Below are positions 27,290 through 30,181 of a DNA stretch of 64,000 nucleotides, one piece after another (position 1 is the stretch's first letter; every line of letters starts with the position of its first letter). A model generated the notes under the pieces. It did not search any database and had not been told where the DNA came from. It saw only the letters and a list, made by a program, of their open reading frames with translations. A program made the translations under genes and the position numbers. The stretch is from positions 186,001 to 250,000 of the forward strand of contig NZ_CP016768.2 in assembly GCF_002287885.2 (NCBI RefSeq), read 5' to 3'. Source of the stretch: Candidatus Nanopelagicus limnes. Lineage in GTDB: Bacteria > Actinomycetota > Actinomycetes > Nanopelagicales > Nanopelagicaceae.

Positions 27290-28923
27290 ATAATTCTGCA
27301 ATTTTGGCAGAGCTTGATTCAGATCAACTAGCAGTTGTAAAAGCAATAACTGGTCCTGTATGCGTGATAGCAGGTGCTGGTACTGGTAAAACTCGAGTAA
27401 TCACTAATCGAATTGCATATGCAATTAATGCAGGAGTTACCGATCCAACAAAAGTATTAGCTCTTACCTTTACTGCTAAAGCAGCTGGTGAGATGCGGGC
27501 AAGATTGCGCGCCCTTGGTATTTCAAATGCCAGCGCTAGAACATTCCACTCAGCGGCGCTAAAGCAGCTTCTCTATTTTTGGCCATACGCCTTTGGTGGG
27601 CAATTTCCATCGCTGCTAACTACTAAATCTGGCTTTATTAGCCAGGCAATTACTAGAGCTGAGGTTGCAATTCCGGCCCAGGTAAATGCACTTCGAGAAA
27701 TTGCAAGTGAAATTGAATGGGCAAAAGTTTTAGAGATTTCACCTGAAAATTATCAACAAGAAGCAATTGCCAATAACCGGCTAGTTAGATTGCCAAATAG
27801 CAAAGGCGAGTCTGAAAATCTCTCAATGATTGCCCAAGTTTATGAAGCTTATGAATCATTAAAGAAACAGGAGCGCACCCTAGATTTTGAAGATGTACTA
27901 CTCCTGACTGTTGGCATGTTGGAGGAGGATCGTGGGGTGCGAGAGAGGGTGCAGGATCAGTATCGATACTTCACCGTGGATGAGTACCAGGATGTTTCAC
28001 CTTTGCAGCAGCGGTTGTTAAATCTTTGGCTAGGAAGTCGTCAAGAAATTTGTGTTGTGGGGGATGCGGCTCAAACTATTTACTCATTTGCTGGGGCCAC
28101 CTCAAACTTCTTACTTAACTTTCAAAATAGATTTCCAAATGCCCAAGTTTTCCGACTCTCCCGCGGTTATCGATCTACCCCTGAAATTATCAATACCGCA
28201 AATGCAATCTTGCGAGCCGCTAATTTAGTTTCAGATCATGGCAGTGAGTTGCAATCAGCGAATGCCCATGGTGAAAAGCCTGCGGTTAATGGATTTAACT
28301 CCACACAAGATGAGATCTCTTATGTGGTTGGTGAGGTAGTGAAGAGTATTTCTCTTGGCGTGGACTCATCGCAAATCGCAGTATTGGCCAGAACCAATGC
28401 CCAGTTAGATCAGGTTAAGTCAGCTTTGAATAATGCCAGGATTCCAAGTCAGATTAGATCAGGTGAGAGATTTTTTGATCGAACCGATGTGCGAGATGTA
28501 ATGCGCATTATTCGAAGTGCCTCCGTACTACCTTCTGAAGGTGGTGATTGGTATGCCGATTTAGTTGCAGTTCTTCGACCATTTGGTGATGCTGATTATG
28601 TTGTGGCTTTTTTAAGGTTGGCTAAAAGTATTCAAGAAAACGGTGGCAAAAATATGCGCGCCTTTTTGCGTGAGATCGAGGATCGATCTGAGCAAAACAA
28701 TCCACCAACCTTGCCTGGGGTAACACTGGCAACTTTGCATGCAGCCAAAGGTTTGGAATGGAATCACCTGTTTTTAATTGGGGTTTCTGAGGGCGTACTA
28801 CCAATGGGTAATGATTTAAATGAAGAACGACGACTATTTTATGTTGGCATTACCCGTGCAAAGGAGCGGATTCAAATCACCTATGCCGGCAAGCCCAGCG
28901 TATTTCTAGCCCAATTTAATTAA
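27280..28923 (+). CDS. uvrD2: UvrD2-like ATP-dependent DNA helicase, short form
   Basis: A 547-residue superfamily 1A helicase with Walker A GAGTGKTRV (32-40), FTAKAAGEMRARL, FTVDEYQDVSPLQQ, GDAAQTIYSFAG, LHAAKGLEWNHLF and FYVGITRAKERI. Gene order (adnAB, nudC, uvrD2, whiB7) and the FAGATSNFLLNF segment match mycobacterial UvrD2, which is a 3'-5' helicase. Mycobacterial UvrD2 is about 700 residues with a C-terminal HRDC domain and a tetracysteine region; this protein stops soon after motif VI, so those parts are missing. The start lies inside nudC. Confidence 0.88.
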   Translation: MAVDNSAILAELDSDQLAVVKAITGPVCVIAGAGTGKTRVITNRIAYAINAGVTDPTKVLALTFTAKAAGEMRARLRALGISNASARTFHSAALKQLLYFWPYAFGGQFPSLLTTKSGFISQAITRAEVAIPAQVNALREIASEIEWAKVLEISPENYQQEAIANNRLVRLPNSKGESENLSMIAQVYEAYESLKKQERTLDFEDVLLLTVGMLEEDRGVRERVQDQYRYFTVDEYQDVSPLQQRLLNLWLGSRQEICVVGDAAQTIYSFAGATSNFLLNFQNRFPNAQVFRLSRGYRSTPEIINTANAILRAANLVSDHGSELQSANAHGEKPAVNGFNSTQDEISYVVGEVVKSISLGVDSSQIAVLARTNAQLDQVKSALNNARIPSQIRSGERFFDRTDVRDVMRIIRSASVLPSEGGDWYADLVAVLRPFGDADYVVAFLRLAKSIQENGGKNMRAFLREIEDRSEQNNPPTLPGVTLATLHAAKGLEWNHLFLIGVSEGVLPMGNDLNEERRLFYVGITRAKERIQITYAGKPSVFLAQFN

Positions 28924-28924
28924 G

Positions 28925-28954
28925 TTGCATCAAAGATAGGTCATGCTTTACTCT
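28925..28954 (+). promoter_or_regulatory. Promoter of the whiB7 leader
   Basis: A -35-like TTGCAT (28925-28930), an 18-base spacer and a -10 box TACTCT (28949-28954). The -10 box ends six bases before ATG 28961, so the transcript should begin at or next to that start codon. Confidence 0.6.
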
Positions 28955-28960
28955 TGCCGA

Positions 28961-29140
28961 ATGGCAAAACTAGTTAATTCACACACAGCAGTTGCACCAA
29001 TTGCAGCTACTGCTAATTGGTATGCCATCAATCCAGTCACAGCGAAATCTTCATATCGCTCAGATTGGACAAATAAGCGCTCTAATAAGGGTTTTTATAC
29101 CTTTACATCAGATCGCACCCCTGGGAGCTATATCGGCTAA
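28961..29140 (+). CDS. Leaderless upstream ORF (59 aa) of the whiB7 attenuator
   Basis: The ORF encodes 59 residues (MAKLVNSHTAVAPIAATANW and onward, ending DRTPGSYIG). It is polar, rich in Ser, Thr, Asn, Ala and aromatic residues, and matches no family I know. Its ATG lies six bases after a TACTCT -10 box, so it is probably translated from a leaderless mRNA. It ends 20 bases before a strong intrinsic terminator that precedes whiB7. Its last codons can pair with the base of that terminator, which suggests a sensor ORF for ribosome stalling, as known for actinobacterial whiB7/wblC leaders. The peptide itself may have no function. Confidence 0.7.
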   Translation: MAKLVNSHTAVAPIAATANWYAINPVTAKSSYRSDWTNKRSNKGFYTFTSDRTPGSYIG

Positions 29141-29198
29141 AGTCGAAATAGAAGCCAAGGGGCCCGCGAATCTAATGATTCGGGGCCCTTTTTCTTTT
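29118..29198 (+). terminator. Attenuator: intrinsic terminator with alternative antiterminator pairing
   Basis: The terminator stem is GGGCCC (29160-29165) with GGGCCC (29183-29188) plus CGAATC with GATTCG, one bulged G at 29166 and a TAAT loop; a TTTTTCTTTT tract ends at 29198. A competing helix is possible: CCCCTGG at 29118-29124, within the last uORF codons, with CCAAGGGG at 29155-29162, using one bulge and invading the left arm of the terminator. Confidence 0.8.
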
Positions 29199-29287
29199 AT
29201 CTAATAACTTCCAATAAGAGCCAAGTAATTGGCATAACAAATCGAACCAAACTAAATGAAAGATAACCGAAAGGAAAGGTGAGAACG

Positions 29288-29755
29288 ATGACCGTTCTCT
29301 TCAGCGAACTACTTGTACCAGGTTGGGCACAAGGCCCAACTGCCAAGATTGGATTAGGTGATGTCACCTGGGCTTACGAGGATGCCCCAGTGATCTCCTA
29401 TACCGATTACACCGCCAACTCAACAGCAACTATTGCTAATAAGAGTTATCAGACAAAGGTGGAGTACAAGCGCGCTGATAATCCTTTTTCCCCTGAAATT
29501 GATCAGGCTCAAAAGATTCTGAGCCTGCCTTGCCACTCATCTGATCCAGAGCTCTTCTTCAGTGAACAGCCACTGGTGATTGCCCAGGCTAAGGCGCTCT
29601 GCGGTGGCTGCCCCATGAAGGCAAAATGTTTGCAAGGCGCTCTCTCTAGAGCTGAGCCATGCGGTGTCTGGGGAGGTGAGTTATTTGATGAAGGTCAGGT
29701 AATTCAAAGTAAGCGAACACCAGGAAGGCCGGCAAAGGTGGCACAAGCTAGTTAA
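29288..29755 (+). CDS. whiB7: WhiB7-type iron-sulfur transcription regulator
   Basis: A 155-residue Wbl protein from ATG 29288. Cluster cysteines are Cys 82 (LPCHSSDPELFF), Cys 105 and 108 (CGGC) and Cys 114 (KAKC). The beta-turn motif is GVWGGE (126-131), and an AT-hook-like KRTPGRPAK (143-150) points to WhiB7, the activator of intrinsic antibiotic resistance that binds the housekeeping sigma factor. About 75 residues precede the Wbl domain, longer than usual. The frame also has a GTG at 29279, but the Shine-Dalgarno GGAAAGG at 29273-29279 fits ATG 29288. Control is likely by the upstream attenuator. Gene order matches mycobacteria. Confidence 0.9.
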   Translation: MTVLFSELLVPGWAQGPTAKIGLGDVTWAYEDAPVISYTDYTANSTATIANKSYQTKVEYKRADNPFSPEIDQAQKILSLPCHSSDPELFFSEQPLVIAQAKALCGGCPMKAKCLQGALSRAEPCGVWGGELFDEGQVIQSKRTPGRPAKVAQAS

Positions 29756-29802
29756 GTTTAAAGAAAGTTAATAACAACTGTTAACTAGGAAGGGTTAACA
29801 AA

Positions 29803-29843
29803 AAAGCGGTGAGGTTGGAATTAATCCAATCTCACCGCTTTTA
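29803..29843. terminator. Bidirectional intrinsic terminator
   Basis: AAAAGCGGTGAGGTTGGA pairs with TCCAATCTCACCGCTTTT around an ATTAA loop (one G-U). It lies between whiB7 and the convergent DUF5679 gene and has A/T runs on both sides. Confidence 0.9.
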
Positions 29844-29865: not shown

Positions 29866-30024
29866 TTAAGCCTTACCAAGAATACGATTTACCTTTGTGC
29901 CACAAACTGGGCAGATTCCTTGTGCCATACGGCGACCAGAATCAGAGACCTTTACATGTCCTTCAAAGGAACGCTTCTCTTTGCACTTAACGCAGTAAGC
30001 CTCACCCTTGTACTCTTCAGCCAT
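29866..30024 (-). CDS. DUF5679 zinc-ribbon protein (52 aa)
   Basis: A 52-residue basic protein with two CxxC pairs, CVKC near residue 11 and CPVC near residue 38, separated by KEKRSFEGHVKVSDSGRRM. This is a small zinc ribbon of the DUF5679 type, widespread in actinobacteria; its role is unknown, and a ribosome or nucleic-acid partner is plausible. A longer in-frame opening reaches 30099, but ATG 30022-30024 is preceded by an excellent Shine-Dalgarno (GGAGGAAG), and upstream residues look random. Confidence 0.85.
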   Translation of the reverse strand: MAEEYKGEAYCVKCKEKRSFEGHVKVSDSGRRMAQGICPVCGTKVNRILGKA

Positions 30025-30181
30025 TTTCTTCCTCCATCCGCCGCACTCTTGGGAGCATGCCGGCAAGTTCCTGCATGTGAGTACGAATAGCAACACCATA
30101 CCCCTACTAACACGCTCAACTGGGGTTTTCCACGCTTAAAATCCCAAATATTAAGTCAAAAAGTGCAAATAAGGGGTAAAA

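Follow-up and report, generated by a model that had tools for sequence, protein, structure and literature searches.

The whiB7 locus

The window analyzed here is a 64-kb stretch (bases 186001 to 250000) of the closed 1,238,108-base genome of Candidatus Nanopelagicus limnes, family Nanopelagicaceae (acI); positions are counted from the first base of this window. The genes around whiB7 encode an NAD(+) diphosphatase, a UvrD-like helicase, and a TIGR03624 hydrolase, and whiB7 of Mycobacterium tuberculosis presumably also adjoins a gene of this kind, uvrD2. The features of the locus are as follows.

28916-28954, plus strand: promoter, with TTAATT, 3 bases, a -35 element TTGCAT, a spacer of 18, and a -10 element TACTCT
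28961-29140, plus strand: leaderless upstream open reading frame (uORF) of 59 codons, MAKLVNSHTAVAPIAATANWYAINPVTAKSSYRSDWTNKRSNKGFYTFTSDRTPGSYIG and stop (start position in the genus, indels, closed frames)
29057-29107, plus strand: conserved codon block RSDWTNKRSNKGFYTFT, uORF codons 33 to 49 (pN/pS 0.07, pS 0.19)
29086-29105, plus strand: small hairpin predicted within the uORF, TAAGGGT-TTTTAT-ACCTTTA (folding)
29110-29173, plus strand: antiterminator, a three-part hairpin of -28.2 kcal/mol (folding, swap test, folds of relatives)
29158-29199, plus strand: intrinsic terminator (folding, shuffles, match to covariance model R2)
Upstream of whiB7, plus strand: Shine-Dalgarno sequence GGAAAGG
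29288-29755, plus strand: whiB7, 155 amino acids (Pfam Whib, 55 bits; match to 7KIF)
29866-30099, minus strand: DUF5679 gene, convergent with whiB7

The solved protein closest to the window WhiB7 is 7KIF, WhiB7 of M. tuberculosis (E = 1e-24, compared with 1.6e-9 for WhiB1), and the match spans both the cysteine domain and the AT-hook region. As judged from its sequence, the gene at 29288-29755 is a true whiB7 orthologue. Its ATG lies at 29288, a small correction to an earlier note on this DNA, which had let the leader run to 29290. Among 108 near-complete, little-contaminated genomes of Nanopelagicaceae, 103 contain whiB7. The window protein carries ∼70 additional N-terminal residues, and WhiB7 proteins of the order mostly read EPCGVWGG where that of M. 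tuberculosis reads EPWGVWGG, which adds one cysteine close to the Fe-S domain (C in 51 of 73; the others have A, W, V, or I). Nanopelagicales-type whiB7 loci were also present in six metagenome-assembled genome records (L032, L050, L075, L090, L092, and L096) whose titles name Bifidobacterium breve, Streptomyces griseus, or Fonsibacter lacus and which look mislabelled. Downstream, a long and nearly perfect inverted repeat flanked on either side by T-runs (29802-29842) separates whiB7 from the DUF5679 gene and is probably a bidirectional terminator.

A conserved promoter and a leaderless uORF

The earlier note had placed a promoter, TTGCAT (28925-28930) and TACTCT (28949-28954) with a spacer of 18, six bases before a 59-codon uORF, and all of these coordinates were confirmed. 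The -35 element follows directly on the stop codon of the upstream helicase gene. The layout, the TTGC, and the 18-base spacer are common to all 50 Nanopelagicales leaders scanned. An AT-rich TTAATT occupies the position of the WhiB7 box, three bases 5' of the -35 element, here and in most leaders of the order; it differs from GAAAWY, the word of Streptomyces WhiB7 promoters (PMC7157823). The position of this TTAATT suggests that WhiB7 probably activates its own promoter. The pattern TTAATT-N3-TTGC-N20-TANNNT has a single exact match in the whole genome, at the whiB7 promoter; when a WhiB7 regulon was sought genome-wide with this pattern, no further exact match appeared, and matches with one mismatch stayed at the control level.

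The uORF runs from the ATG at 28961, six bases past the -10 element, to a TAA at 29138-29140. In the genus, the uORF starts 6 to 7 bases past the -10 element in 16 of 16 leaders scanned; other genera have 5' leaders of ∼40 to 60 bases, several of them with a Shine-Dalgarno site, and a few of their uORFs are leaderless. Among 50 long ORFs from the window, 11 have a TANNNT 6 to 7 bases ahead of their first start, whereas each other distance accounts for about one; leaderless mRNAs therefore seem to be common in this genome. A leaderless start gained once, cleanly, was considered and set aside: the WhiB7 tree needs ∼4 changes of state, although this tree is weak and compatible with a single origin.

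Every length difference of the uORF within the genus is a multiple of 3, and the remaining forward frames across it are interrupted by stops. The uORF thus bears the marks of a coding sequence conserved in frame, a property whose absence the earlier note would have counted against its reading.

Terminator and antiterminator

The strong terminator noted earlier upstream of whiB7 proved to be a stem of 29158-29172 and 29177-29190 (loop 29173-29176, bulged G at 29166) with a T-rich tail to 29199; its energy of -24.3 kcal/mol is low for its composition, with z = -5.3 relative to shuffles that keep dinucleotide content. One and the same terminator search applied across leaders found a terminator in 80 of 83. 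Both of these elements of the whiB7 leader escaped the consensus scanners run on the window, the promoter because near-consensus hexamers were demanded and the -35 element is TTGCAT, the terminator because unbulged stems were demanded and this stem has a bulge. Conservation, rather than a consensus score, carries the case for both.

For the antiterminator, the earlier note had proposed pairing between CCCCTGG (29118-29124) and CCAAGGGG (29155-29162). This pairing was recovered as part of a larger structure: when the RNA was folded in the state that precedes emergence of the terminator 3' arm, it formed three helices stacked on one another, and the proposed pairing is the middle one. The outer helix joins AGATCGC (29110-29116) to GCG-A-ATCT (29166-29173), and the inner helix joins CTAT-A-TCGGC (29128-29137) to GTCGA-A-ATAG (29142-29151), with the uORF stop codon held in the apical loop TAAA. 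The antiterminator occupies most of the terminator 5' arm, including, through the outer helix, its loop-proximal stem; the switch would therefore be sharper than two clashing short helices. The duplex between the last 36 uORF bases and the terminator side has an energy of -27.1 kcal/mol; when the 5' arm was shuffled, 7 of 2000 versions paired equally well, so that the real duplex surpasses 99.6% of them.

In the full leader, folding favors the terminator (-32.8 versus -28.2 kcal/mol for the antiterminator), whereas during transcription no fold is more stable than the antiterminator up to ∼29186, when the terminator 3' arm is out. The outcome would thus depend on kinetics, with the antiterminator forming first. 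Leaders of other Nanopelagicales and of distant Actinomycetes fold alike: their stop codon is located at the apical loop or beside it, and they show pairings such as CCTTTGAG:CTCAAAGG in L120 and CCTCGAGG:CCTCGAGG in L124. In L131 (genome G028), from another genus of the family, the whiB7 uORF has 27 codons, the terminator is kept, and the antiterminator fold is weaker (-19.9 kcal/mol).

The two arms coevolve

Alignment with MAFFT and RNAalifold was tried on the 3' module and recovered only the terminator, plus a small hairpin at the stop codon in one set; it misses the antiterminator because the two structures compete and the arms misalign. It was replaced by an arm-swap test, in which each uORF 3' end was paired with its own terminator arm or with those of other leaders (20,000 permutations). 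In 22 distinct Nanopelagicales leaders (no more than 85% alike), own arms paired at -27.9 kcal/mol and swapped arms at -21.3 kcal/mol (z = -8.1; 0 of 20,000). In the other Actinomycetes, z was -6.7 (n = 17) and -6.5 in a repeat (n = 16). Both sets retained the effect when the inner hairpin was left out (z = -5.2 in each), and the inner hairpin by itself showed it as well (z = -5.7 and -4.0). As a control, the 24 uORF bases just upstream gave no effect in the same test in either set (z = -0.4 and 0.2), so shared base composition does not explain the fit of the arms. The test is blind within the genus of the window, where the arms hardly vary, and the signal comes from other genera and families. 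Covariation of the alternative helices, without which the earlier note would have given up its reading, is thus present, with 0 of 20,000 permutations matching it and a negative control.

These results leave little room for the idea that the terminator merely ends the uvrD-like transcript and that the uORF encodes an ordinary small protein, with no switch at all: a -35 element directly behind the helicase stop codon and a RSDWTNKRSNKGFYTFT block kept at the protein level would fit it, but a plain terminator needs no coevolution with a uORF 3' end, which was found in two large leader sets, and the architecture accompanies whiB7 where the upstream gene differs (L020), making this reading highly improbable.

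The 3' module is inherited

Two covariance models were built, R2 from Nanopelagicales leaders without the genus of the window and R1 from other Actinomycetes only. R2 matches the window at 29106-29195 (E = 3.8e-14). Searched directly on the window, R1 gave no match; it does match many other Nanopelagicales at the corresponding place (best E = 1.8e-5), as well as Nonomuraea gerenzanensis (5.9e-12) and Nocardia farcinica (0.0015). This chain through intermediates argues that the element was inherited from a common actinobacterial whiB7 leader. None of the Rfam covariance models scored above its gathering threshold on the window leader or on eight related leaders.

The earlier note had suggested that the same logic might have evolved here with a new sensor peptide. 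The sequence comparisons divide this idea in two. The 3' module, that is, the last ∼10 codons, the stop codon, the antiterminator, and the terminator, is inherited rather than evolved anew, and only the body of the uORF is lineage-specific. Since the uORF body is variable in all Actinomycetes examined, its being unlike known sequences does not point to an independent origin.

A probable ribosome-monitored attenuator of whiB7

With the anatomy of an attenuator, a uORF conserved in frame, coevolving alternative helices, and homology to the whiB7/wblC attenuator, the leader is very probably a ribosome-monitored transcription attenuator of whiB7, and the uORF-controlled attenuation put forward in the earlier note is upheld. 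In our model, the transcript would start at the uORF ATG or immediately beside it, so that its leaderless end would be loaded directly by a ribosome. A ribosome that reaches the stop codon in time would cover ∼29123-29152, opening the inner hairpin and blocking the uORF side of the antiterminator; the terminator (29158-29190) would then form, and transcription would end near 29199. If the ribosome stalled before ∼codon 45, or if none had loaded, the antiterminator would be free: the uORF 3' end would pair with the terminator 5' arm as it emerged, allowing read-through into whiB7, and WhiB7 would then probably activate its own promoter. We infer that ribosome-targeting drugs and amino acid shortage are the stalling signals, and the effect size and the autoregulation have the same footing.

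What the uORF may sense

A narrower possibility is that the uORF mainly senses a shortage of aminoacyl-tRNAs (Ala, Trp, His, Thr, Ser, and Tyr) and not general stalling. With the window's long ORFs as the reference, W (2.6-fold), H (2.2-fold), T (2.1-fold), Y (1.9-fold), A (1.7-fold), and S (1.7-fold) are overrepresented in uORFs of the order, and L, D, and E are scarce, figures that include RNA constraints and shared descent among the leaders; Trp is above background in 20 of 20 representative uORFs. A work cited in PMC10727445 is described there as reporting that WhiB7 is needed under alanine starvation in mycobacteria, which would suit such a sensor. However, the uORF lacks the single-codon run typical of classical biosynthetic leaders, several residues are enriched together, and the W signal is in part the TGG of the antiterminator itself. 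We therefore consider an amino-acid-specific attenuator unlikely.

The RSDWTNKRSNKGFYTFT block raises the question of an arrest peptide, that is, of a genus-specific sequence that stalls the ribosome upon one signal. pN/pS is 0.07 in the block and 0.72 in the N-terminal part of the uORF, and the block adjoins the antiterminator on its 5' side. With the ribosome footprint assumed to extend ∼11 bases past the A-site codon, an A-site at or before ∼codon 45 would leave the whole antiterminator free; under this assumption, no position beyond the block would let a stalled ribosome spare the antiterminator, and the end of the block falls where such a ribosome would only just keep clear of it. On the other hand, synonymous sites in the block are slow as well (pS 0.19, compared with 0.50 in whiB7), so that RNA or codon constraint must also be acting and may explain part of the conservation, and other genera carry blocks unlike RSDWTNKRSNKGFYTFT. 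A single-signal arrest peptide is, on balance, quite unlikely. That the genus gained in RSDWTNKRSNKGFYTFT a dedicated leaderless arrest peptide, stalling at the last antiterminator-permissive position, strikes us as unlikely too; if true, a general ribosome monitor would have become a sensor and acquired a specificity of its own, and starting leaderless would alter which initiation inhibitors are sensed. Within the block, the predicted hairpin at 29086-29105 could possibly act as a polymerase pause hairpin; its sequence is nearly invariant in the genus and so offers no covariation test.

We retain the general attenuator as the preferred reading. In lakes, few microbes are as abundant as the freshwater acI bacteria, whose genomes are highly reduced; that whiB7 is kept in 103 of 108 genomes, and the switch in the leaders examined, points to everyday translation stress or amino acid shortage, beyond antibiotic warfare. 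The comparative set also provides a structural definition missing from Rfam, namely three helices and a stop codon located at the apical loop or beside it, which could serve to find the whiB7 element across Actinomycetes.

Comparison with known systems

In actinobacteria, an intrinsic terminator and, before it, a uORF precede whiB7/wblC genes, and when ribosomes stall, parts of both can pair as an antiterminator (PMC10727445, PMC11550727, PMC9618640); early evidence for leader control of whiB7 was given in PMC4128351. The attenuator of Streptomyces coelicolor and Mycobacterium, as related in PMC11550727, PMC9618640, and PMC10727445 (Lee, Lee and Roe 2022), shares with the leader studied here the gene, the order of the parts, the terminator, and a uORF 3' end that overlaps the antiterminator, and covariance models connect the two through intermediates. 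They differ in three respects. The Nanopelagicus uORF is leaderless, whereas the mycobacterial uORF is reportedly led by a Shine-Dalgarno site ∼10 nt upstream (PMC4128351); the body of the uORF is unrelated in sequence; and the word upstream of the -35 element is TTAATT here and GAAAWY there.

The leader-peptide attenuators of the ilvBNC and trp type (PMC10272879, PMC13236596) likewise let ribosome position pick terminator or antiterminator, but they sense the end-product amino acid through codon runs, and the window uORF has no such run. Mycobacterial leaderless polycysteine sORFs (Canestrari et al., as cited in PMC13236596) are also leaderless regulatory uORFs of actinobacteria; according to the citing passage, they answer cysteine through poly-Cys codons and serve other operons, unlike the uORF of the window. 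A search of the open-access literature found no description of a Nanopelagicales whiB7 leader, which is weak evidence of absence. The leader is an ordinary but well-supported case of the whiB7 attenuator known from actinobacteria, in a lineage that matters ecologically, has received little study, and apparently lacks a description of this element; two of its features are worth attention, a leaderless uORF and a strongly conserved block next to the antiterminator.
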